Below, piece by piece: positions 6,423-49,315 of a stretch of 64,000 nucleotides of DNA (positions are counted from its first letter, which is position 1; each line of letters begins with the position of its first letter). Origin of the DNA: Ensifer adhaerens (GTDB lineage: Bacteria > Pseudomonadota > Alphaproteobacteria > Rhizobiales > Rhizobiaceae); NCBI RefSeq assembly GCF_002940685.1, contig NZ_PNFP01000003.1:248001-312000 (forward strand), read 5' to 3'. The notes beneath the pieces were generated by a model, which saw only the letters and a list, made by a program, of their open reading frames with translations, was not told the DNA's origin and did not search any database. A program made the position numbers and the translations under genes.

Positions 6423-6551
6423 CGTCCGGTCGCAGGCATCGATGGCGCCCGGCAACTGGCGCGGCACGCTTGGCTTGAGTTCGAAATATGCTGCATTGCG
6501 AAAATGCCGGCGCAGCAATACAGTCGCATTCTCCTCACTGCGGTCGCGAAG

Positions 6552-7154
6552 ATGAAGCCGAGCGGATTGAACGTACTGGTCATCGACGAGAATCGCATTC
6601 GCGCCGCCATCATCGAAGAGGGGCTGCGCGACGCGGGCTATGACCAGCTCACCGTCATCGACGACATGCACGGTCTTGCGCGGCGCATCGCCGACCTCAA
6701 TCCCGACGTCATCGTCATCGATCTCGAAAACCCCAACCGCGACATGCTGGAGAGCATGTTCCAGCTGTCACGCGCGGTGAAGCGCCCCATCGCGATGTTC
6801 GTCGACAAGTCCGACGAGGCGTCGATCGAGGCTGCGGTCGAGGCGGGGGTGTCGGCCTATATCGTCGATGGGCTCAAGCAGGAGCGGGTGCGCCCGATCC
6901 TGAAGATGGCGATCAGCCGCTTCAATGCGTTTTCCCGTCTCAACCGCGAGCTCGAGGAGACACGCGGCGAACTGGAAAACCGCAAGGTGATCGATCGGGC
7001 CAAGGGGTTGCTGATGCGCTCTCGCGGGCTCACGGAAGAAGAGGCCTATGCGCTGCTGCGCCGCACCGCGATGAACCAGAACCGCAAGATCGTCGAGATC
7101 GCCCAGAGCCTTGTCACGGCGGCCAGCCTGCTCGACCCGGGAGGGAAGGAATGA
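6552..7154 (+). CDS. nasT: Nitrate/nitrite-responsive antiterminator NasT (receiver + ANTAR)
   Basis: 200 residues. Receiver-like N-domain (acidic Asp12, possible acceptor Asp57 in VIVIDLENP), a linker helix (about residues 120-140), then an ANTAR RNA-binding domain (VIDRAKGLLMRSRGLTEEEAYALLRRTAMNQNRKIVEIA). In known NasST systems, free NasT binds paired hexaloop hairpins in a leader RNA and stops termination. Such a leader stands at 8543-8643, ahead of the structural genes. The start at 6552 is chosen because the family begins just before the LNVLVIDEN strand. nasT overlaps nasS by 4 bases (ATGA). Confidence 0.94.
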   Translation: MKPSGLNVLVIDENRIRAAIIEEGLRDAGYDQLTVIDDMHGLARRIADLNPDVIVIDLENPNRDMLESMFQLSRAVKRPIAMFVDKSDEASIEAAVEAGVSAYIVDGLKQERVRPILKMAISRFNAFSRLNRELEETRGELENRKVIDRAKGLLMRSRGLTEEEAYALLRRTAMNQNRKIVEIAQSLVTAASLLDPGGKE

Positions 7155-8365
7155 CGACGCGCCACGCCATCACCGCCGGCTTCGTGCCGCTGCTCGACAG
7201 CGCGCTTCTCGTCGTCGCCCGCGAGATCGGTTTTGCGCAAGAGCAGGGGATCGACCTTACCCTCCTGCGCGAACGCTCCTGGGCGAGCATCCGTGACCGG
7301 CTTGCGGTTCGCCATGTCGATGTCGCGCATATCCTCGGTCCCATGCCGATCGCCGGCAATCTCGGCCTCAATGTGCCTGCGCCCGAAATGATCGTGCCGA
7401 TGTCGCTGGGTCTCGGCGGCAATGCGGTGACCGTGTCCCAGGCGCTCTGGCAAAAGATGGCGAACAACGGCGCGACCGCCAATCTCGACGCGCGGACAAA
7501 TGGGGCAGCCCTGCGCAAGGCGATCGATGCGCAACCGGGCACGCCGCTGCGTTTTGCTGTCGTACATCCCTATTCCGGGCACAATTACGAACTGCGCTAC
7601 TGGCTGGCGGCGAGCGGCATCGATCCGGACCGCGACATCGAGATCGTCGTGCTGCCGCCGCCGGACATGGGCGATGCGCTCGCCGAAGGCGTGATCGACG
7701 GCTATTGCGCCGGCGAACCCTGGAACACCTTCGGGGTGCTTCGCCGCGGCGGACATCTGGCAACCGTCAAGGCGGCGATCTGGCGATCGAGCCCGGAAAA
7801 GGTGCTCGGCGTCAACGCGCGCTGGGGGCGGGCCAATCCCGAAGCCATGGCCGCTTTGCTCGTCGCCCTCCACCAGGCCTCGCTCTGGTGCGCGCGGCCG
7901 GAAAACCACGAGGCGCTTGCCAGCCTTCTGGCAAGGCCCGCCTATGTGGGCCGCGACGCCGAGCTGCTTCTTCCAGCGCTCAACGGCAAGCTGCCGGTCG
8001 GCGGCGGTGAGGTGCGGGCGATCAGCGACTTCTTCGTTCCGAATGCCAAGGCGGCGACCTTCCCCTGGAAGAGCCATGCCCTGTGGTTCTACACCCAGAT
8101 GGTGCGCTGGCGGCAGATCGAACACACGGCCGAGCGCCAGCGCATCGCCGCGGAAACCTATCGGCCGGACATCTACCGCGCCGCCCTGAAGCATCTCGGC
8201 CTTGCCATGCCGTCGGCAAGCGCCAAGGTGGAGGGCGCCTTGACCGTCGAAACCCCGGTCGGCTCGTCAGGCGCACTGACGCTCGGCCCGGACGGCTTCT
8301 TCGATGGCGGGCGCTTCGATCCCGACGACCTCGACGCCTATATCGCGGCACAGTCTGCCGGCTGA
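7151..8365 (+). CDS. nasS: Nitrate/nitrite sensor NasS (NrtA-like, cytosolic)
   Basis: 404 residues. Related to the nitrate-binding proteins NrtA/CmpA but with no signal peptide (starts TTRHAITAGFVPLLDSALLVVA), so it should act in the cytosol. In the family, NasS holds NasT inactive until nitrate or nitrite binds. Typical segments are RDRLAVRHVDVAHILGPMPI, HPYSGHNYELRYWLAA and VIDGYCAGEPWN. It is co-translated with nasT, and the pair sits directly upstream of the leader it should control. Confidence 0.93.
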   Translation: MTTRHAITAGFVPLLDSALLVVAREIGFAQEQGIDLTLLRERSWASIRDRLAVRHVDVAHILGPMPIAGNLGLNVPAPEMIVPMSLGLGGNAVTVSQALWQKMANNGATANLDARTNGAALRKAIDAQPGTPLRFAVVHPYSGHNYELRYWLAASGIDPDRDIEIVVLPPPDMGDALAEGVIDGYCAGEPWNTFGVLRRGGHLATVKAAIWRSSPEKVLGVNARWGRANPEAMAALLVALHQASLWCARPENHEALASLLARPAYVGRDAELLLPALNGKLPVGGGEVRAISDFFVPNAKAATFPWKSHALWFYTQMVRWRQIEHTAERQRIAAETYRPDIYRAALKHLGLAMPSASAKVEGALTVETPVGSSGALTLGPDGFFDGGRFDPDDLDAYIAAQSAG

Positions 8366-8494
8366 ATGCGCGGCGCCTAATTTATGCGCACTGCACAAAA
8401 AATGGCTTCGCATTGCACCAGCCATCATCACGCATCTGGGTTCGTCAGAGCGCAATTTTTCACTTTTGCATATATATCAATAGCTTGCTGAAAC

Positions 8495-8510
8495 TGGCAC
8501 GCCGATTGCA
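8495..8510 (+). promoter_or_regulatory. Sigma-54 (RpoN) -24/-12 promoter of the nitrate operon
   Basis: TGGCAC, five bases, TTGCA: an exact match to the -24/-12 consensus, with GG and GC elements 10 bases apart. Transcription should start near 8521. This ties the nitrate genes to general nitrogen control (RpoN plus an activator such as NtrC), on top of pathway-specific control by NasST. The activator sites upstream are less certain. Confidence 0.88.
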
Positions 8511-8542
8511 TTTCTATTCGTAGGCCCTCGGGCCACGAGATC

Positions 8543-8580
8543 GGTGTCCAACGACGGGCGCCTTACCAGCAAAGCCGCTG
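8543..8580 (+). ncRNA. Two-hairpin ANTAR (NasT) target in the leader RNA
   Basis: Hairpin 1: stem 8543-8549 with 8556-8562 (7 bp, two G-U pairs), loop AACGAC at 8550-8555. Hairpin 2: stem 8567-8570 with 8577-8580 (4 bp), loop AAAGCC at 8571-8576. Four bases separate them. Both loops have six bases with A at position 1 and G at position 4, the established ANTAR recognition rule. Hairpin 2 uses bases 8575-8580, which are also the 5' arm of the terminator that follows, so binding should prevent termination. Confidence 0.85.
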
Positions 8581-8643
8581 ATCGGGAACTGCGCGCACGG
8601 ACTGTCCGTGTCGCGGCACGCCCGGCCAGCGGTTTTTTGTTTT
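8575..8643 (+). terminator. Leader (regulated) intrinsic terminator ahead of the nitrate operon
   Basis: Outer stem CCGCTG (8575-8580) with CAGCGG (8627-8632), continued by CGGG (8583-8586) with CCCG (8621-8624) across a 2x2 internal loop. An inner hairpin CACGGA/TCCGTG (8596-8601 with 8605-8610) fills the top. Six T residues follow at once (8633-8638), then GTTTT. It shares its 5' arm with ANTAR hairpin 2, giving exclusive terminator and antiterminator states. Confidence 0.83.
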
Positions 8644-8690
8644 CAACCCCAAGATGGAGCGGCACGACCTTGTCGGGCCACGGAGAAGCC

Positions 8691-9947
8691 ATGTCTGAGA
8701 ACAAGCAGCCACTATCGGCAAGTGAACCCGCCACCGCGTTGTGGATGTCCACCTTCGCCTTCACCATCTGTTTTGCCGTCTGGACGATCTTTGCGATCAT
8801 CGGCATCCGCATCAAGCAGGACCTTGGCTTGAGCGAGGCACAGTTCGGCCTGCTCGTCGGCACGCCGATCCTCACCGGCTCGCTGGTGCGCATCCTGCTT
8901 GGCGTCTGGACCGGACGCTACGGCGGGCGGCTGGTCTACACCCTCACCATGCTCGCGGCGGCGCTGGCCACCTTCCTGCTCGCTTACGCGACCACCTATG
9001 CGCAGATGCTGCTCGCCGGCCTCGGCATCGGTCTTGCCGGTGGGTCCTTCGCCGTCGGCGTCGCCTATGTCTCGCCGTTCTTTCCGCCGGAAAAGCAGGG
9101 CACCGCGCTTGGCATCTTCGGCGCCGGCAATGTCGGGGCGGCGGTGACAAAATTCGTCGCGCCTTTCGTCCTCATTGCCTGGGGTTGGCAGACGGTTGCC
9201 GAGATCTGGGCGGCCGCACTCGTCGTCACGGCGCTCGTCTTCTGGTTCACGACCAGCGACGATCCGGCCTTCCGCAGCCGCCGCGAGCAGCAGGTGCCGA
9301 AGCGCAGCTTGCTCCAGGAATTCGCGCCATTGAAGAACGCGCAGGTCTGGCGCTTCTCGCTCTATTACTTCTTCGCCTTTGGCGGCTTCGTCGCCCTTTC
9401 GCTCTGGCTGCCGCGTTATCTCGTCGGCGTCTATGGCTTCGACATTGCAGCCGCCGGCATGATCGCCGCCGCCTATTCCATCCCCGGCAGCATCTTCCGC
9501 GCCTTTGGCGGCATGCTTTCGGACCGCAAGGGCGCACGCAGCGTCATGTACTGGATGCTCGGGGTCTCGGCGGTGGCAACGCTGATCCTGTCGCTGCCGG
9601 CAGCGGGCGAGGCGAGCGGCTTCGGCATCACGCCTGCTGTGTTCATCATCGTCGTCTTCGTTCTCGGCTTCGTCATGAGCCTCGGCAAGGCCGCCGTCTA
9701 CAAGCACATCCCGGCCTACTACCCTGACAATGTCGGCGCGGTCGGCGGCATCGTCGGCATGGTCGGCGGGCTCGGCGGCTTCGTCCTGCCGATCGCCTTC
9801 GGCCTGCTCAAGGATGCGACCGGCCTCTGGTCGAGCTGCTTCCTGCTTCTCTTTGGCGTCGTCGCCGTGTCGCTCGTCTGGATGCACGTCTCGATCCGCG
9901 AGATGGAGCGCCGCGCGCTTTCCCTGCCCACGGCTGCCGCCGCCTGA
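8691..9947 (+). CDS. narK: Nitrate/nitrite transporter, MFS (NarK/NasA family)
   Basis: 418 residues, inner membrane. Major-facilitator transporter for nitrate uptake (and possibly nitrite exchange). Nitrate-porter signatures are visible, such as GLGIGLAGGSFAVGVAYVSPFFPPEKQGTALGIFGAGNVGAAVTK in the first half and NVGAVGGIVGMVGGLGGFVLPIAFG in the second. The ATG at 8691 has GGAG 7 bases upstream and sits just after the leader terminator. A GTG at 8544 in the same frame would place coding sequence over the hairpins and is rejected. First structural gene of the operon; 17 bases before nirB. Confidence 0.94.
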   Translation: MSENKQPLSASEPATALWMSTFAFTICFAVWTIFAIIGIRIKQDLGLSEAQFGLLVGTPILTGSLVRILLGVWTGRYGGRLVYTLTMLAAALATFLLAYATTYAQMLLAGLGIGLAGGSFAVGVAYVSPFFPPEKQGTALGIFGAGNVGAAVTKFVAPFVLIAWGWQTVAEIWAAALVVTALVFWFTTSDDPAFRSRREQQVPKRSLLQEFAPLKNAQVWRFSLYYFFAFGGFVALSLWLPRYLVGVYGFDIAAAGMIAAAYSIPGSIFRAFGGMLSDRKGARSVMYWMLGVSAVATLILSLPAAGEASGFGITPAVFIIVVFVLGFVMSLGKAAVYKHIPAYYPDNVGAVGGIVGMVGGLGGFVLPIAFGLLKDATGLWSSCFLLLFGVVAVSLVWMHVSIREMERRALSLPTAAAA

Positions 9948-9964
9948 ACTGACAAGGACAGACC

Positions 9965-12415
9965 ATGACAGAGAAACTCGTCATCATCGGCAATGGCATG
10001 GCGCCGGGGCGCATGCTGGAGCACCTCATCGAAAAGGCGCCCGACCGCTACGAGGTCACCATTTTCAACGCCGAGCCGCGCGTCAACTACGACCGCATCA
10101 TGCTCTCGCCGGTACTGTCCGGCGAGAAGGAATACGAAGAGATCATCATTCATGGTGATGGCTGGTACATCAAACACGGCATCACGCTCTACAAGGGCCA
10201 CCGCATCGTGGCCATCGACCGCGATGCCCGGACCGTGACCTCCGACCATGGGGTTACCGAGACCTACGACAAGCTCGTGATCGCCACCGGCTCCGTGCCC
10301 TTCATCCTGCCGGTGCCCGGCAAAGACCTGCCCGGCGTCATCACCTATCGCGATCTCGACGACGTGCAGGCCATGCTGCTCGCCGCCCAGTCGCGCGAAA
10401 AGGCCGTCGTCATCGGTGGCGGCCTGCTCGGCCTCGAAGCCGCCGCCGGCCTTGCCGGCCGCGGCATGGACGTCACCGTTCTTCACGTGATGCCGACGCT
10501 GATGGACCGCCAGCTCGACCCGGCCGCCGGCTATCTCCTTGAGAAGGAGCTGGAAGGCCGCGGCATCAAGATCATCTGCAAGGCCAACACCAAGGCGATC
10601 GTCGGAAACGGCAAGGTCGAGGGCATCGAACTTGACGATGGCCGCATCATTCCGGCAACGCTCGTCGTCATGGCCGTCGGCATCCGGCCGAGCGTCGGCC
10701 TCGCAAAAGAGGCTGGCCTTGCCGTCAACCGTGGCATCGTCGTCGACCAGGGCATGCAGACCTCGGACGGTCACATCTGGGCGCTTGGCGAATGCGCGGA
10801 AGTGGGCGGCATGGTCTATGGCCTCGTGGCACCACTCTATGAGATGGCGCGTGTCGCCGCCTCCCATCTTGCCGGCGAGCGCTCCGCCGCCTTCGTCCAT
10901 TCCGACACGCCGACCAAGCTCAAGGTGACCGGCATCGAACTCTTCTCGCTCGGCGACTTCGCCGATGGCGACGACCGCGAGGAGATCGTGCTGCGCGATG
11001 CCGCCGCCGGCGTCTACAAGCGGGTGGTGCTGAAGGGCAACCGCATCATCGGCACGGTGCTTTACGGGGAGACCGCTGACGGAGCCTGGTTCAACGATCT
11101 CAAAAAGAAGGAGACCGACGTCTCCGAGATGCGCCAGACGCTGATCTTTGGTCAGGCCTTCCAGGGAGGTGCTCCGCTGGACCCTATGGCGGCCGTTGCA
11201 GCCTTGCCGGATGATGCGGAAATCTGCGGCTGCAACGGCGTTTGCAAGGGCAAGATCGTTTCCACGATCGCCGGCAAGGGCCTGACGTCGCTCGACGACG
11301 TGCGTGCCCACACCAAGGCGTCCGCCTCCTGCGGCTCCTGCACCGGCCTTGTCGAACAGTTGATGACGCTGACGCTCGGCGAGAGCTACAGTCCCGCGGC
11401 CGTCCAGCCGATGTGTGGCTGCACCGACCTCGGTCATGACGAGGTGCGCCGCCTGATCAAGGCCAAGGGACTGAAGACCATTCCCGCGGTCATGCAGGAG
11501 CTCGAATGGAAGACCTCCTGTGGCTGTGCCAAATGCCGCCCGGCGCTCAACTACTACCTCGTCTGCGATTTCCCGGACGAATATGCCGACGACTACCAGT
11601 CGCGCTTCATCAACGAGCGTGTGCACGCCAACATCCAGAAGGACGGCACCTATTCGGTCGTGCCGCGCATGTGGGGCGGGGTCACCAATTCCGGGGAACT
11701 GCGTGCCATTGCCGACGTCGTCGACAAGTTCGAAATCCCGCTGGTGAAGGTGACCGGCGGCCAGCGCATCGACCTGCTCGGCATCGAGAAGGAAGACCTG
11801 CCGGCCGTCTGGGCCGATCTCGGCAAGGCCGGCTTTATCTCAGGCCAAGCCTACGCCAAGGGTCTGCGCACGGTGAAGACCTGCGTCGGTTCGGACTGGT
11901 GCCGCTTCGGCACGCAGGATTCGACCGGGCTCGGCATCCGCATCGAGAAATTCATGTGGGGCTCCTGGACGCCGGCCAAGCTGAAGATGGCGGTCTCCGG
12001 CTGTCCACGCAATTGCGCCGAAGCCACCTGCAAGGACATCGGCGTCATCTGCGTCGACTCAGGTTTCGAGATCCACTTCGCCGGCGCCGCCGGTCTCGAC
12101 ATCAAGGGCACCGAAGTGCTCGGGCTGGTCAGGACCGAGGACGAGGCGCTGGAGCACATCGTCGCGCTGACGCAGATGTATCGCGAACAGGCGCGCTATC
12201 TCGAGCGCATCTACAAATGGGCAAAGCGCATCGGCCTCGACGAAATCCGCCGCCAGATCATGGACGATACCGACAAGCGCAAGGCCTTTTTCGACCGTTT
12301 CGTCTTCAGCCAGAAATTCGCCCAGGTCGATCCCTGGTCGGAGCGCGTCTCCGGCAAGGACAAACACGAGTTCCGGCCGATGGCGACCATCGGCTACCCC
12401 CAGGCTGCGGAATAG
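9965..12415 (+). CDS. nirB: Assimilatory nitrite reductase [NAD(P)H], large subunit
   Basis: 816 residues, cytosolic. Reduces nitrite to ammonium. Order: FAD/NAD(P)H oxidoreductase domain (IIGNGMAPGRMLEHLIEK and a second nucleotide fold AVVIGGGLLGLEAAAGLAGRGMDV), a BFD-like [2Fe-2S] segment (CGCNGVCKGKIV with a later SCGSC), then the siroheme/[4Fe-4S] domain with its four-Cys pattern (TCVGSDWC and SGCPRNC). Full family length. The siroheme it needs is supplied by cysG, encoded at the end of the same operon. Confidence 0.97.
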   Translation: MTEKLVIIGNGMAPGRMLEHLIEKAPDRYEVTIFNAEPRVNYDRIMLSPVLSGEKEYEEIIIHGDGWYIKHGITLYKGHRIVAIDRDARTVTSDHGVTETYDKLVIATGSVPFILPVPGKDLPGVITYRDLDDVQAMLLAAQSREKAVVIGGGLLGLEAAAGLAGRGMDVTVLHVMPTLMDRQLDPAAGYLLEKELEGRGIKIICKANTKAIVGNGKVEGIELDDGRIIPATLVVMAVGIRPSVGLAKEAGLAVNRGIVVDQGMQTSDGHIWALGECAEVGGMVYGLVAPLYEMARVAASHLAGERSAAFVHSDTPTKLKVTGIELFSLGDFADGDDREEIVLRDAAAGVYKRVVLKGNRIIGTVLYGETADGAWFNDLKKKETDVSEMRQTLIFGQAFQGGAPLDPMAAVAALPDDAEICGCNGVCKGKIVSTIAGKGLTSLDDVRAHTKASASCGSCTGLVEQLMTLTLGESYSPAAVQPMCGCTDLGHDEVRRLIKAKGLKTIPAVMQELEWKTSCGCAKCRPALNYYLVCDFPDEYADDYQSRFINERVHANIQKDGTYSVVPRMWGGVTNSGELRAIADVVDKFEIPLVKVTGGQRIDLLGIEKEDLPAVWADLGKAGFISGQAYAKGLRTVKTCVGSDWCRFGTQDSTGLGIRIEKFMWGSWTPAKLKMAVSGCPRNCAEATCKDIGVICVDSGFEIHFAGAAGLDIKGTEVLGLVRTEDEALEHIVALTQMYREQARYLERIYKWAKRIGLDEIRRQIMDDTDKRKAFFDRFVFSQKFAQVDPWSERVSGKDKHEFRPMATIGYPQAAE

Positions 12416-12425
12416 GAGATCGGCC

Positions 12426-12755
12426 ATGACCTGGTTTGCCATTGGAAACATCGCCGACATTCCACTGCGCGGCGCGCGCTGCGTGAAAACGCCTCAAGGA
12501 AAGATTGCCGTATTTCGCACCGCGGAGAACGAGGCTTTTGCCATCGAGGACCATTGCCCGCACAAGGGCGGGCCGCTCTCGCAGGGCATCGTCCATGCCA
12601 AGGCCGTCACCTGCCCGTTGCACAACTGGGTGATCTCGCTCGAGACCGGCCGGGCGCTCGGCGCGGACGAGGGGGCGGTGAAGACGATTGCGCTGCGCAA
12701 CGATGATGGCGCGCTCTTCATCGCGCTCGAAAGCCTGATGATGGCGGCCGAATAG
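12426..12755 (+). CDS. nirD: Nitrite reductase small subunit NirD (Rieske type)
   Basis: 109 residues, partner of NirB. A Rieske-like beta-fold that keeps all four iron-sulfur ligands: Cys44-x-His46 (CPHKGGPLSQG) and Cys63-x2-His66 (CPLHNW). Many NirD proteins have lost these, so this one may still hold a [2Fe-2S] cluster. AGGAG precedes the ATG. Ten bases after nirB, and one base before the nasA ATG. Confidence 0.95.
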   Translation: MTWFAIGNIADIPLRGARCVKTPQGKIAVFRTAENEAFAIEDHCPHKGGPLSQGIVHAKAVTCPLHNWVISLETGRALGADEGAVKTIALRNDDGALFIALESLMMAAE

Positions 12756-12756
12756 A

Positions 12757-15414
12757 ATGGAGAAGGCCGTCAAGACAACCTGCCCCTATTGCGGCGTCGG
12801 CTGCGGCGTCGTTGCGACCGTTGCCGACGACGGTGCGGTCTCCGTCAAGGGCGACCCGGATCACCCGGCAAACTACGGCCGGCTCTGTTCGAAGGGTTCG
12901 GCACTCGCCGAAACGCTCGATCTCGACGGCCGCATCCTTCATCCGGAGATCAGCGGCCGTCAGGCGTCCTGGGATGAGGCGCTCGACCTGGTGGCGGGAC
13001 GTTTCGCCCAGACGATCGCCGAACACGGGCCGGATTCGGTCGCCTTCTATGTCTCCGGCCAATTGCTGACGGAGGACTATTACGTCGCCAACAAGCTGAT
13101 GAAAGGCTTCATCGGTTCGGCCAACATCGATACCAATTCACGCCTGTGCATGTCCTCCTCCGTCGCCGGTCACCGCCGTGCCTTCGGTTCGGACACGGTG
13201 CCGGGAACCTACGAGGATCTGGAACTGGCCGATCTGGTGGTGCTCACCGGCTCCAACCTTGCCTGGTGCCATCCGGTTCTCTACCAGCGTCTTGCCGCGG
13301 CCAAGGCAAGGCGGCCGGGCATGAAGGTCGTCCTCATCGACCCGCGCCGCACCATGACCGCAGACATCGCCGACCTGCATCTGGCGATCCGTCCCGATAC
13401 GGATGCAGCACTCTTCGTCGGCCTGTTCTCACATCTGGTCGCAGGCAATGTTGTCGACCAGAACTATGTGGCGGCGCACACGACCGCTTTCGCGGAAGCC
13501 TTGACGGCATCCGGAGCCGTCTCCTTTACCGAAGTGCTTGAGCGGACCGGTCTTCCGGCCATGCAGCTGCGCGAATTCTATCGGCTGTTTGCAACCACCG
13601 AAAAGGTGGTGACCTGCTACAGCCAGGGCGTCAACCAGTCCTCCTCGGGCACCGACAAGGTCAACGCGATCCTCAACTGTCACCTCGCAACCGGCCGTAT
13701 CGGCCGGCGGGGCATGGGGCCATTTTCGCTGACGGGGCAGCCGAATGCCATGGGCGGCCGCGAGGTCGGTGGCCTTGCCAATATGCTCGCCGCCCATATG
13801 GCGATCGAGAACGCCGGGGACCGCGACCGCGTGCAGCGCTTCTGGCGCTCGCCGGCCATTGCCGAAAAGCCCGGCCTGAAGGCAGTCGACCTTTTCCAGG
13901 CGGTGGCTGACGGGCGCGTCAAGGCGCTCTGGATCATGGCGACGAACCCCGTCGTCTCGATGCCGGATGCCGATGCCGTCGAGGCGGCGATCCGGGCCTG
14001 CCCCTTCGTCGTCGTTTCGGATGTCCTGAAGGAGACAGACACCGCCCGTCACGCCCATGTGCTGCTGCCGTCCCTCGGCTGGGGCGAAAAGAGCGGCACG
14101 GTCACCAACTCCGAGCGCCGCATCTCCCGCCAGCGCGCGTTTCTTGAAGCGCCGGGGGAGGCGAGGTCAGACTGGTGGCAACTTACCGAGGTTGCCCGGC
14201 GCCTGGGCTTTGCCGAGGCCTTTACCTATGACGCTCCGGCCGAGATCTTTCGCGAACACGCCGCCCTCTCGGGCTTCGAAAATGCTGGCAGCCGCGATTT
14301 CGATATCGGCGCCCATGCCGATCTGACGTCGGAGGATTATGAGGCGCTGACACCGTTCCAATGGCCGCAGCCCGCCGGACAGGGGAGCGCCGAAAGCCGT
14401 TTCTTTGCGGATGGCGGCTTCTACCATGCCGATGGCAAGGCCCGTTTCGTGGCGCTTCGGCCGCCCGAAACCGTTCGGACCAATGCCGATTACCCGTTCA
14501 CGCTGAACACCGGGCGCATCCGCGACCAGTGGCACACGATGACCCGCACAGGCAAAAGCGCGCGCCTTTCGGCCCATATCGCCGAACCGTTTGCGGAACT
14601 GCACCCGCGTGACGCAATGGAGATCGGCGTTGGCAACGCCGGCCTCGTCGAGATCGAAAGCCCTCAGGGCAAGGCGATCGTGCGCGCGCTGATCACTGAA
14701 CGTCAGGCGCGCGGCAGCATCTTTTCGCCGATGCACTGGAACGACCAGTTTGCGGCCAAGGCGCGCATCGATGTCCTCGTGCCGGCGATCACCGACCGCC
14801 TCTCCGGCCAGCCAGCGTCGAAAAACGTTGCCGTCGCCGCGCGCAAATTCAAGGCGACGCACTACGCCTTTGCCGTATCGAAGGCAAAGCCGGTCGATCC
14901 GGGTGCCGCCTACTGGGCGCTGGCAAAGGCCGAGGCCGGCTTTCGCCTGGAACTGGCCTTTGCCGGGCCGCTGGACGACTGGGCCGGCTGGTGTCGGCGC
15001 GTCTTCGCGATCCCGCAAGGGGTAGAGCCACTCGGCTATGCCGACGCGCAGACCGGCGACATCAGGCTCGCCTTTTTCGATGGCGCGCGACTTCTCGCCG
15101 CCTTCTTCCTGGCGCGCGAACCGGTGGCCGTCGCCCGCAACTGGGCGATCGCGCAGCTTGCGGCCGACCACCTCGACCTGCGCAAGCGTTTCGCGCTCGT
15201 CGCCGGCCGGCCGGGCGCGGACAAGCCCGATCCCGGCGCCACCGTCTGCTCCTGCTTCGGCATCGGCGTCAACCAGATCGTCGCGGCCGTACGCGGCGGT
15301 TGCCACAGCGTCGAGGCCGTCGGCAAGTCGCTCAACGCCGGAACCAATTGCGGCTCGTGCCGCGCCGAGATCAGGGGGATCATCGATGGATGCCATGCAA
15401 CCGCCGCGGAATGA
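12757..15414 (+). CDS. nasA: Assimilatory nitrate reductase, catalytic subunit
   Basis: 885 residues, cytosolic molybdopterin enzyme reducing nitrate to nitrite. N-terminal [4Fe-4S] motif CPYCGVGC with a fourth Cys in GRLCSKGSAL, a bis-MGD domain (NTNSRLCMSSSVAGHRRAFGSD, TGQPNAMGGREVGGLANMLAAH), a C-terminal molybdopterin-binding domain (FTLNTGRIRDQWHTMTRTGKS), then a BFD-like [2Fe-2S] tail (CSCFGIG ... TNCGSC). The added tail is typical of NasA forms that receive electrons from NAD(P)H or ferredoxin partners. Its 3' end overlaps the cysG start by 29 bases. Confidence 0.97.
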   Translation: MEKAVKTTCPYCGVGCGVVATVADDGAVSVKGDPDHPANYGRLCSKGSALAETLDLDGRILHPEISGRQASWDEALDLVAGRFAQTIAEHGPDSVAFYVSGQLLTEDYYVANKLMKGFIGSANIDTNSRLCMSSSVAGHRRAFGSDTVPGTYEDLELADLVVLTGSNLAWCHPVLYQRLAAAKARRPGMKVVLIDPRRTMTADIADLHLAIRPDTDAALFVGLFSHLVAGNVVDQNYVAAHTTAFAEALTASGAVSFTEVLERTGLPAMQLREFYRLFATTEKVVTCYSQGVNQSSSGTDKVNAILNCHLATGRIGRRGMGPFSLTGQPNAMGGREVGGLANMLAAHMAIENAGDRDRVQRFWRSPAIAEKPGLKAVDLFQAVADGRVKALWIMATNPVVSMPDADAVEAAIRACPFVVVSDVLKETDTARHAHVLLPSLGWGEKSGTVTNSERRISRQRAFLEAPGEARSDWWQLTEVARRLGFAEAFTYDAPAEIFREHAALSGFENAGSRDFDIGAHADLTSEDYEALTPFQWPQPAGQGSAESRFFADGGFYHADGKARFVALRPPETVRTNADYPFTLNTGRIRDQWHTMTRTGKSARLSAHIAEPFAELHPRDAMEIGVGNAGLVEIESPQGKAIVRALITERQARGSIFSPMHWNDQFAAKARIDVLVPAITDRLSGQPASKNVAVAARKFKATHYAFAVSKAKPVDPGAAYWALAKAEAGFRLELAFAGPLDDWAGWCRRVFAIPQGVEPLGYADAQTGDIRLAFFDGARLLAAFFLAREPVAVARNWAIAQLAADHLDLRKRFALVAGRPGADKPDPGATVCSCFGIGVNQIVAAVRGGCHSVEAVGKSLNAGTNCGSCRAEIRGIIDGCHATAAE

Positions 15415-16882
15415 CGAACCTGCCCGCATGGAGCCGCTCGCCAAGCTGCCGGTCTTCTGGGCACTGGAGGGCCGGCGCGTCGTCGTTGCCGGCGCAACGG
15501 ATGGCGCGATGTGGAAGGCCGAACTGCTCGCCGCCTGCGGCGCTTGCGTCGATGTCTACGCCGAAGCCTGCGACGAGACCTTCGAGGCGTTTCTTGACCG
15601 CACACCGGAACATCCGGCCGCGAGCATAGCGCTTAACCGTCGGCGCTGGGCGCCCGCCGATCTTGACGGTGCAGCGCTCGCCATCGGCGATTGCGAAGAC
15701 GAGGCGGAGGCGCGAGCCTTCGTCGCCGCAGCCCGCGCGGTGGGCGTTCCGGTCAACGTCATCGACAAGCCGGAATTCTGCGAATTCCAGTTCGGCTCCA
15801 TCGTCAACCGCTCGCCGGTGATCGTCGCGATATCGACGGATGGCGCCGCTCCGATCCTCGCCCAGACGATCCGGCGCAAGATCGAGACGCTGTTGCCGAA
15901 AAGCCTGAAGGTCTGGGCCGCGCTGGCACAGTCTCTTCGCGATGCGGTAAACCGGCGTCTTGAGCCCGGTCCCCGACGTCGCGTCTTCTGGGAGCGTTTT
16001 GCCGACCGGGTCTTTTCGACAATGGATACGCCGGAGGAGGGCGTAGGCGGGGTGCTTCTTGCTGATGCCGAAAGGCTCGCGGGAGCCCCCGCCATCGGTC
16101 GCGTGACCCTTGTCGGCGCGGGGCCGGGTGATGCCGAGCTTCTGACATTGAAGGCCGTGCGTGCGCTCCAGGCTGCCGATGTCATCCTGTTCGACGACCT
16201 CGTCTCCGCAGACGTGCTCGAGCTCGCGCGGCGGGAGGCGAAACGCATGCTGGTCGGAAAACGTGGCGGCCGCGAAAGCTGCCGGCAGGACGACATCAAC
16301 GCCATGATGGTCAAGCTCGCCAAGGCCGGAAAACGTGTGGTGCGGCTGAAATCCGGCGACCCCATGGTCTTCGGCCGGGCCGGCGAGGAAATCACCCATC
16401 TCGACCGCGAGAACATTCCCGTGGACGTCGTCCCCGGCATCACTGCGGCAAGCGCCATGGCCTCCCGTCTCGGGCTTTCGCTCACCCATCGCGACCATGC
16501 CCAGTCGCTCCGGCTCGTGACTGGCCATTCCCGCCATGGCGGCCTGCCCGACGATGTCGACTGGGCAGGTGTCGCCGACCGCCGCTCGACGACGGTGTTC
16601 TACATGGGAGGCCGAACGGCGGGACTCATTGCCGAAAAGCTCGTCGGGGAGGGCCTTCCGCCCGAAACGCCCGTCGTCATCATGAGCGATGTCAGCCGGC
16701 CAACCGAGCGCAGCTGGCGCGGCACGCTTGCGACCATCCCCGAGGGCATCACGGCAATCGGCTACGACAACCCGGTGCTCATCGCCGTCGGCGACGCGCT
16801 TGCCGCCCGACAGGTCTCCGCCGGTTCGATCGATACAAGTTCGATCGATTCAAGCCGGCCCCTCGCCGCCTGCGCGGGGTGA
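15386..16882 (+). CDS. cysG: Siroheme synthase CysG (dehydrogenase/ferrochelatase + methyltransferase)
   Basis: 498 residues. N-domain (about 15-215): precorrin-2 dehydrogenase/sirohydrochlorin ferrochelatase, with NVIDKPEFCEF and AISTDGAAPILAQTIR. C-domain (about 225-475): uroporphyrinogen-III C-methyltransferase (VTLVGAGPGDAELLTLKAVRALQAADVILFDDLVS, RLKSGDPMVFGRAGEE). It makes siroheme for NirB, and for sulfite reductase elsewhere. Starts at 15386, 15395 and 15428 are all possible. The first two overlap nasA and would couple translation; the family needs only the sequence from about 15428. The nucleotide-binding loop (VVVAGATDGAMWKAE) departs from the usual GGG pattern. Confidence 0.93.
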   Translation: MDAMQPPRNDEPARMEPLAKLPVFWALEGRRVVVAGATDGAMWKAELLAACGACVDVYAEACDETFEAFLDRTPEHPAASIALNRRRWAPADLDGAALAIGDCEDEAEARAFVAAARAVGVPVNVIDKPEFCEFQFGSIVNRSPVIVAISTDGAAPILAQTIRRKIETLLPKSLKVWAALAQSLRDAVNRRLEPGPRRRVFWERFADRVFSTMDTPEEGVGGVLLADAERLAGAPAIGRVTLVGAGPGDAELLTLKAVRALQAADVILFDDLVSADVLELARREAKRMLVGKRGGRESCRQDDINAMMVKLAKAGKRVVRLKSGDPMVFGRAGEEITHLDRENIPVDVVPGITAASAMASRLGLSLTHRDHAQSLRLVTGHSRHGGLPDDVDWAGVADRRSTTVFYMGGRTAGLIAEKLVGEGLPPETPVVIMSDVSRPTERSWRGTLATIPEGITAIGYDNPVLIAVGDALAARQVSAGSIDTSSIDSSRPLAACAG

Positions 16883-48984: not shown

Positions 48985-49126
48985 ATAAACGTAATTGTCG
49001 AGCGCGATTGAAGTTGATGCCGGCAATTACGTATCGCTTTCGACTTTTGACCATGGATGTATTGGCAGAAGCCTTGAGGGCGAAAAAGAAAAGAAGGCCG
49101 GGGCCAGCGCGCTCCGGCCTTTTTTA
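48985..49126 (+). ncRNA. Candidate small RNA of about 140 bases
   Basis: Upstream: TTGTTC at 48950-48955 and TATAAA at 48973-48978 with a 17-base spacer. Downstream: the terminator at 49094-49126. No ribosome site or short reading frame ends before the terminator. The exact 5' end is an estimate. No family is recognised. Confidence 0.4.
49094..49126 (+). terminator. Intrinsic terminator (8-bp stem, T6)
   Basis: AAGGCCGG (49094-49101) and CCGGCCTT (49114-49121), 12-base loop, T-run at 49120-49125. A-rich sequence before the stem could make it work in both directions, so it might also end the decayed minus-strand permease transcript. Confidence 0.85.
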
Positions 49127-49315
49127 CTTGTCTCCCGCCGCCGCGTCATTTCGGACTGATTGGTGCCTGCGGGCACCCGCCGCGGTCACGCATTGTTCCT
49201 GCTCCACCGGGGTTAATCCAGGAGTAGGTTTCCCCGTTTCGTCCTGTGGATGTTCGCGTCCCGTTCGGGCGCGTTTATTAAAAATGTCTGCGTCGGGTTC
49301 CGAAGTGCGGCGCGC

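Follow-up and report, generated by a model that had tools for sequence, protein, structure and literature searches.

Antitermination by ANTAR proteins has been described for EutV and the eut genes, for NasR and nasF, and for AmiR. As far as the relevant passages of PMC3369931 and PMC8934654 go, these systems share two hairpins whose six-base loops carry A at the first and G at the fourth position (A1/G4), a short linker between the hairpins, a second hairpin that lies within the 5' arm of an intrinsic terminator, and a cognate ANTAR protein. According to the same passages EutV responds to phosphorylation and NasR has a fused sensor, whereas at the locus described here the expected signal, by analogy, would be release from NasS. 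Passages of four further papers describe NasT-NasS control behind a hairpin leader for nasA of Paracoccus and for narK, nirA and nosR of Bradyrhizobium (PMC3795266, PMC5424462, PMC4724949, PMC6759348). In Paracoccus, as reported in the parts consulted, the nasA leader is bound by NasT, which nitrate frees from NasS (PMC3795266); growth on nitrate is lost on chromosomal mutation of hairpin HI, and nitrate-grown expression is nearly unchanged when the second hairpin, HII, is mutated (PMC5424462). A predicted hairpin is no guarantee of control, as an excerpt on B. diazoefficiens makes clear: in a nasT mutant under denitrifying conditions, narK RNA went up despite a predicted NasT hairpin (PMC6759348). 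From the same excerpts, nasTS lies beside the operon in Paracoccus, as in our locus, and far from the narK operon in Bradyrhizobium. A base-level fold, a hairpin at the 5' end (P0) and covariation, all given here, are absent from the passages on the Paracoccus and Bradyrhizobium leaders.

The DNA analysed (the window, a stretch of 64,000 nucleotides) belongs to an Ensifer genome, and the nearest named relatives by NasS in the collection searched are E. adhaerens L18 (95% identity) and Ensifer sp. LC11 (92%). All features below lie on the forward strand. The gene order is a solute-binding protein gene (SBP_bac_11) with ABC-type ORFs, which we take from their translations to be cysTWA-like, then nasT, nasS, the leader, and narK-nirB-nirD-nasA-cysG. 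The nasT gene (6504..7154, with a start codon that may be at 6504 or further in) encodes a REC-like and ANTAR RNA-binding protein (Pfam ANTAR 5.1e-22, Response_reg 4.5e-10), and nasS (7151..8365), which overlaps the nasT stop, encodes an NMT1-like nitrate/nitrite sensor (Pfam NMT1_2 8.3e-71). These Pfam matches bear out the view, taken in an earlier sequence-only reading of the window, that NasT and NasS are encoded immediately 5' of the leader. The leader itself sits inside the 325-base gap between nasS and narK. The first gene of the putatively controlled operon encodes a narK-type nitrate/nitrite transporter (8691..9947; Pfam MFS_1 1.1e-49) that reaches 230.9 bits against TIGR00886, under the cut-off of 311.7. 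It is followed by nirB, the nitrite reductase large subunit (9965..12415; TIGR02374, 891 bits, over cut-off), and a nirD-like Rieske protein gene (12426..12755; Pfam Rieske 2.1e-15). The next gene (12757..15414) encodes a protein with molybdopterin and BFD-like Fe-S domains (Pfam) whose NCBIfam scores for formate dehydrogenase alpha (481.9 bits) and NasC (437.8 bits) are both under cut-off; by context, it is probably the assimilatory nitrate reductase gene, nasA. The last is cysG, siroheme synthase (15455..16882; NF007922, 540 bits, over cut-off).

Within the gap, the first hexaloop hairpin, P1 (8543..8562; GGTGTCC-AACGAC-GGGCGCC, loop at 8550-8555), is separated by a 4-nt linker, TTAC, from the second, P2 (8567..8580; CAGC-AAAGCC-GCTG, loop at 8571-8576), the putative antiterminator. 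The sequence-only reading had placed two A1/G4 hexaloop hairpins four bases apart at this site, and its loops, linker and coordinates are right to the base. An intrinsic terminator predicted to exclude P2 spans 8571..8638. Its 5' arm (8571-8586) contains CCGCTG (8575-8580) and TCGGG (8582-8586), its 3' arm (8621-8632) contains CCCGG (8621-8625) and CAGCGG (8627-8632), and the T-run (T6, 8633-8638) also pairs. The same reading was correct on the shared bases 8575-8580 and on T6 but understated the extent of the overlap: in the minimum-energy fold, 8571-8580, which is the entire P2 loop and 3' arm, is paired into the terminator. The 34-base stretch between the arms (8587..8620), which would delay the 3' arm, forms a hairpin of its own, GCACGGACTGTCCGTG, in the window's fold. 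A simple scan of 8300-8800 returned no terminator; its loop limit was 3-8 bases, and the arms of this one are 34 bases apart.

Two further elements of the leader, a sigma-54 promoter and P0, were overlooked in that reading, so that its description of a complete switch was too strong. The promoter (8495..8510; TGGCAC-N5-TTGCA, -24/-12) is the sole exact match in the window; the usual spacing of sigma-54 promoters places +1 at about 8521-8522, directly before P0 (8523..8534; GGCC-CTCG-GGCC). It is in this promoter, in P0 and in the 34 bases between the terminator arms that the leader differs from the ANTAR antiterminators as described in the passages cited above. The region 8543-8643 folds at -54.1 kcal/mol, compared with -37.8 +/- 3.3 for shuffled sequences (z = -4.95; 0 of 200 as good). 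A pattern scan for two nearby AnnGnn hairpins gave five occurrences on the two strands of the window, this pair included. As the loose two-hairpin pattern is not rare, support for the claim comes from the bases shared with the terminator, from the location and from comparison with relatives; what is rare is an A1/G4 hairpin pair that overlaps a terminator and stands ahead of a nitrate operon.

When the growing transcript was folded from 8522 in 4-nt steps, P0 and P1 were present by 8564, and P2 was in the minimum-energy structure from 8580 to 8628, with a lapse at 8604; at 8632 the terminator replaced it. P2 is short (3-4 bp), and in the full leader free energy strongly favours the terminator, so the predicted switch depends on the timely arrival of NasT. 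With 34 bases separating the terminator arms, P2 would be available to NasT for about 50 nt of transcription. We consider it very probable that the leader switches the narK-nirBD-nasA-cysG operon by NasT-controlled transcription antitermination, and the sequence of the leader supports assignment to a known type, the NasT/ANTAR antitermination leader. In the proposed mechanism, which takes nitrate release, NasT binding, readthrough and nitrogen control from the studied systems, RNA polymerase with sigma-54 would initiate near 8522 under nitrogen limitation, and the emerging RNA would fold P0, then P1, then P2. Without nitrate, NasT would be held by NasS; about 50 nt further on, the emerging 3' arm would capture the P2 bases, and transcription would stop at T6. 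With nitrate or nitrite, NasS would free NasT to bind the A1/G4 hexaloops; with NasT bound, P2 would persist, the terminator would be blocked and the operon would be transcribed.

To compare leaders, we used the best 80 of 315 loci found with NasS as bait, from Ensifer, Shinella, Rhizobium, Mesorhizobium, Aminobacter, Kaistia, Methylocella and others. The motif is present at all of these best 80 of 315 loci (79 by regular expression, L082 by a looser scan), and at 77 of the 80 a scan found it with a T-run within 1.2 kb after nasS; at L083, L112 and L120 its distance from nasS is 1.0-1.3 kb, the usual value being about 0.2 kb. Ten Mesorhizobium-type loci (L093:9939, L097:9941, L106:9944 and seven more) have a second full copy of the leader about 3.5 kb downstream, comprising sigma-54 site, P0, P1, P2 and terminator. 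Because the regular expression requires A1 and G4, loop conservation in the alignments is partly by construction, and the 80 nasS loci offer the stronger test. In the P2 loop, positions 4-6 are under constraint from the terminator as well, and the G4 of P2 is therefore not independent evidence of protein recognition. The A1/G4 pattern on which the earlier reading relied holds for both loops of the window, but A1 is not absolute: G1 occurs in one loop of some relatives' matches, including at least three order-level matches to the covariance model described below (L167, L168, L177).

Alignments were made of 44 and of 54 of the 92 distinct leaders (sets A1 and A2). Across the 54 leaders, 98.0% of cells in the terminator helix are paired and six pairs show two-sided changes, values matched by 0 of 500 shuffles on all five measures used. 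For P1 and P2 together, 93.6% of cells are paired and four pairs show two-sided changes; here 0 of 500 shuffles did as well on three measures, 12 on the number of pairs with two-sided changes and 40 on further pair types. In slid controls for the helices, pairing drops to 18-52%. One base is shared by the two folds, and the triple that it forms with its partners in the P2 5' arm and in the terminator 3' arm reads A-T-A in 28 leaders, G-C-G in 21 and otherwise in five. Judged from the alignment, this three-way covarying position (49 of 54 leaders) is the mark of mutually exclusive folds. The covariation whose absence from related leaders would, on the earlier reading, have told against the switch is thus present in P1 and P2, in the terminator and in one base triple. 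Pair 8547-8558 of P1 is a U.G wobble in 53 of the 54 leaders, and the linker from P1 to the 3-bp core of P2 is 3-6 nt; the outer P2 pair is unpaired in 31 of the 54, so that the P2 stem of many relatives has 3 bp. The stretch between the terminator arms varies from 26 to 41 bases in the 54 leaders, and for most relatives a conserved hairpin within it is unsupported against shuffles that preserve base composition only (better than shuffles at p 0.05 in 17 of 54, p above 0.2 in 29 of 54, median 0.235). Three degenerate copies of the leader, L136 (G005), L137 (G002) and L138 (G012), have largely lost the P2 stem or carry a mismatch in P1. They score 43.8 bits (the second nasTS locus of G005, where most of the P2 stem is gone), 30.0 (G002) and 26.3 (G012), and those of G002 and G012 lie, by eye, behind an apparent sigma-54 site.

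A looser form of the sigma-54 site precedes the motif in all 92 distinct leaders, and in 88 of them the best hairpin in the spacer begins 12-15 nt past the -12 GC. At that position, 60 of the 92 leaders have four outer Watson-Crick pairs, compared with 197 of 1840 shuffles preserving base composition only, and the second pair among the 54 distinct hairpins is GC in 33, AT in seven, CG in seven, GT in six and TG in one. Applied to single leaders, shuffling of the same kind gives a weak result for P0 (median p = 0.08; p at most 0.02 in 16 of 92 leaders and above 0.2 in 19 of 92), and RNAalifold did not predict P0 from the 54-leader alignment, in which its register is shifted between rows. We tentatively infer that P0 probably guards the 5' end of the message. 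Further upstream, a by-eye alignment of 19 upstream regions revealed two CGCAnTGCAC repeats 22 bp apart (8387..8418; 8387-8396 and 8409-8418), similar in near relatives. Our guess is that they are candidate NtrC-type enhancer sites; a scan for the NtrC palindrome TGCAC-N7-GTGCA found no site upstream of the leader. Just 5' of the narK Shine-Dalgarno, a further hairpin was noted by eye (8661..8679; GGCaCGAC-CTT-GTCGgGCC). It appears conserved in Ensifer, Shinella and Rhizobium leaders, and in a few its pairing is kept through changes.

NasT is the sole ANTAR protein in the genome (one PF03861 match at E 0.001 or better). In our reading of its alignment with EutV, whose RNA contacts are taken from the passages cited above, 8 of 11 contact residues are identical, two are conservatively replaced (K147 to R, R177 to K) and one is changed (R175 to N). 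In the receiver, the phospho-acceptor Asp is kept and the conserved Lys of EutV is replaced by Asp (YIVDGL in NasT, YLVKPL in EutV). We built a covariance model from 44 leaders and fully scored 150 of the 11,646 first-look candidates in the 7.5-Mb genome. The window site scores 60.7 bits, a value partly by construction as this leader is among the 44, and the next best place scores 22.4; the fully scored candidates thus include no other strong NasT target (22.4 bits or less). The half-pattern GACANNGACGTCGC has seven matches in the window's genome and two in the reversed control. In the order, 37 of 150 genomes give a model match at E 0.01 or better, but under stricter filters a score of 40 bits is attained at only 12 places, spread over 11 genomes. 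Within the genus, 9 of 16 genomes, though not that of the window, encode a second ANTAR protein with a weaker match (36-45 bits, L018-L026).

At the gathering threshold, Rfam reports a single family in the window, the alphaproteobacterial sRNA ar35 (48988-49128, 83.8 bits), far from the leader. The best Rfam match to the leader itself is the narK RNA, RF03032, at 15.3 bits against a gathering score of 43.2, and a search of the window's genome (G000) gave no RF03032 match at E 0.001; by score, then, the window is not a member of this family. The RF03032 consensus nevertheless resembles the leader: a sigma-54 -24/-12 site is followed by GGcagCC-AACGGC-GGcugCC and then by GAC-AAAGAC-GUC, both loops being A1/G4. 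It differs in that only the window has P0 between promoter and P1, and Rfam pairs P1 alone. We found RF03032 in 15 of 299 genomes of the phylum, at 23 places (L187-L209), 14 of them over the gathering score. By our own patterns, two spaced A1/G4 loops are present at 21 of the 23 and a sigma-54-like site at 16; G1 is found in the second loop at two (L189, L204). All 15 genomes encode an ANTAR protein, compared with 106 of the 299 overall, a coincidence of probability 9e-8 if the two were independent, the true weight being lower because 11 of the 15 come from one family. At 21 of the 23 places, the ANTAR gene is no more than 10 kb away. To judge by these sequence features, the narK RNA looks like the same switch as the leader.

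Other explanations of the leader were weighed against the NasT switch. The hairpins could be a relic or a fixed attenuator, with control wholly at the sigma-54 promoter and NasT acting elsewhere; an exact promoter does stand just 5' of the leader, and degenerate leaders do exist in relatives (G005, G002, G012). The two-sided changes that keep pairing in P1, P2 and the terminator, together with the three-way covariation, nevertheless require selection on both folds, and the genome holds a single ANTAR protein and a single strong target found for it, which leaves this account very unlikely. Control by translation or a leader peptide, in which narK would start at GTG 8544 or be coupled to a 14-codon ORF (ATG GAG CGG ...), is scarcely credible. 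Frame 8544-9947 is open, and in a number of near relatives the short ORF is intact; however, ATG 8691 has a Shine-Dalgarno before it and, by eye, the short ORF is frameshifted or has lost its stop in several relatives, while a hairpin at this place is kept. The P2-to-T-run spacing (45-60 nt in the 54 leaders) varies by single bases, so the leader is not coding; we rejected the frame 8544-9947 as coding sequence on this ground, and the short ORF before narK as a conserved peptide on that of the frameshifts.

A further reading keeps the switch and enlarges it, taking P0, P1 and P2 as a three-hairpin NasT platform in which P0 is a protein contact and not a protector of the 5' end. The P0-P1 distance is mostly 8-9 nt (exceptions 3-13), P0 pairing is kept through changes in its stem, and the P0 of one leader (L121) has an A1/G4 six-base loop, all in its favour. 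P0 loops, however, have four bases in 73 of the 92 leaders, with no letters in common; EutV, in the passage available, touches G4 of a hexaloop (PMC8934654), and the 15 positions from promoter to P1 in the Rfam narK RNA consensus leave no room for P0. We regard the platform as highly improbable and retain the two-hairpin NasT switch preceded by P0.

In 10 of 16 genomes of the genus, nasS is 44-47% identical to that of the window and its leader lacks the regular-expression motif; one of the ten, G005, has in addition a nearer nasS with a degenerate leader. The leaders of this group have a split form, in which a sigma-54 site is followed by P1' (GTC-AAYGGC-GAY; loop AAYGNN across split leaders), a covarying interposed hairpin, and P2' (GAC-AnnGAC-GTC) overlapping a terminator. 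We examined 45 leaders for this form, namely the ten from the genus and 35 of 95 further places (57% identity or more), and 38 of the 45 match (L028, L031, L032, L034-L040 and most of L210-L241). The split alignment (A4) contains 28 of 35 leaders, and L242-L244 are absent from the alignment set; the hairpin statistics omit L241-L244, which gave no sigma-54 site, and L222, likewise without a match, was retained. Thirty distinct sequences, six of them near-identical Ensifer leaders, were compared with shuffles preserving base composition only, and in 24 the interposed hairpin scores above its shuffles at p of 0.05 or below. Its stem pair four from the loop is GC in 11, CG in nine and AT in eight. 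RNAalifold did not predict it from the MAFFT alignment of split leaders, where the register shifts between rows, and did predict it from the ten near-identical genus leaders, where it shows no two-sided changes. Of 394 family genomes searched for the split pattern independently of nasS, 78 contain it, with 80 matches in all, and the reversed-pattern control gave none; A1 and G4 are part of this pattern, and their conservation in the matches is by construction. The two-part split pattern has no match in the window's genome. In L212 and L213, a P1'-like hairpin and an interposed stretch stand ahead of a complete contiguous set of P1, P2 and terminator before narK, an arrangement that resembles a natural fusion.

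We think it fairly likely that NasT targets in the Rhizobiaceae have at least two architectures, a contiguous one with P0 and a split one, and that the narK RNA represents this switch in other parts of the phylum; RF03032 would then have counted the promoter as RNA and left P2 unmarked. The passages of the open-licence PMC literature drawn on here gave no description of the split form, of P0 or of an ANTAR reading of the narK RNA. We conclude that the finding is real and that its more interesting parts are P0, the identity of the narK RNA and the split form. According to the relevant passage of PMC8934654, one EutV dimer binds one loop, so the need for two hexaloops is an open question, and on this question the split form bears. 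Should NasT act on split leaders, a fixed distance between P1 and P2 would no longer be a rule for ANTAR targets, and the gap may be bridged by the interposed hairpin. In S. meliloti, the regulation of nitrate genes is stated in part of PMC6616083 to be not known; the split leader, found in 10 of the 16 genus genomes, is a candidate for their control, at genus level only. For a group of soil and symbiotic bacteria, the leader provides an aligned, covariation-backed predicted NasT target, one leader on which nitrogen limitation, through sigma-54, and nitrate, through NasT, probably converge.
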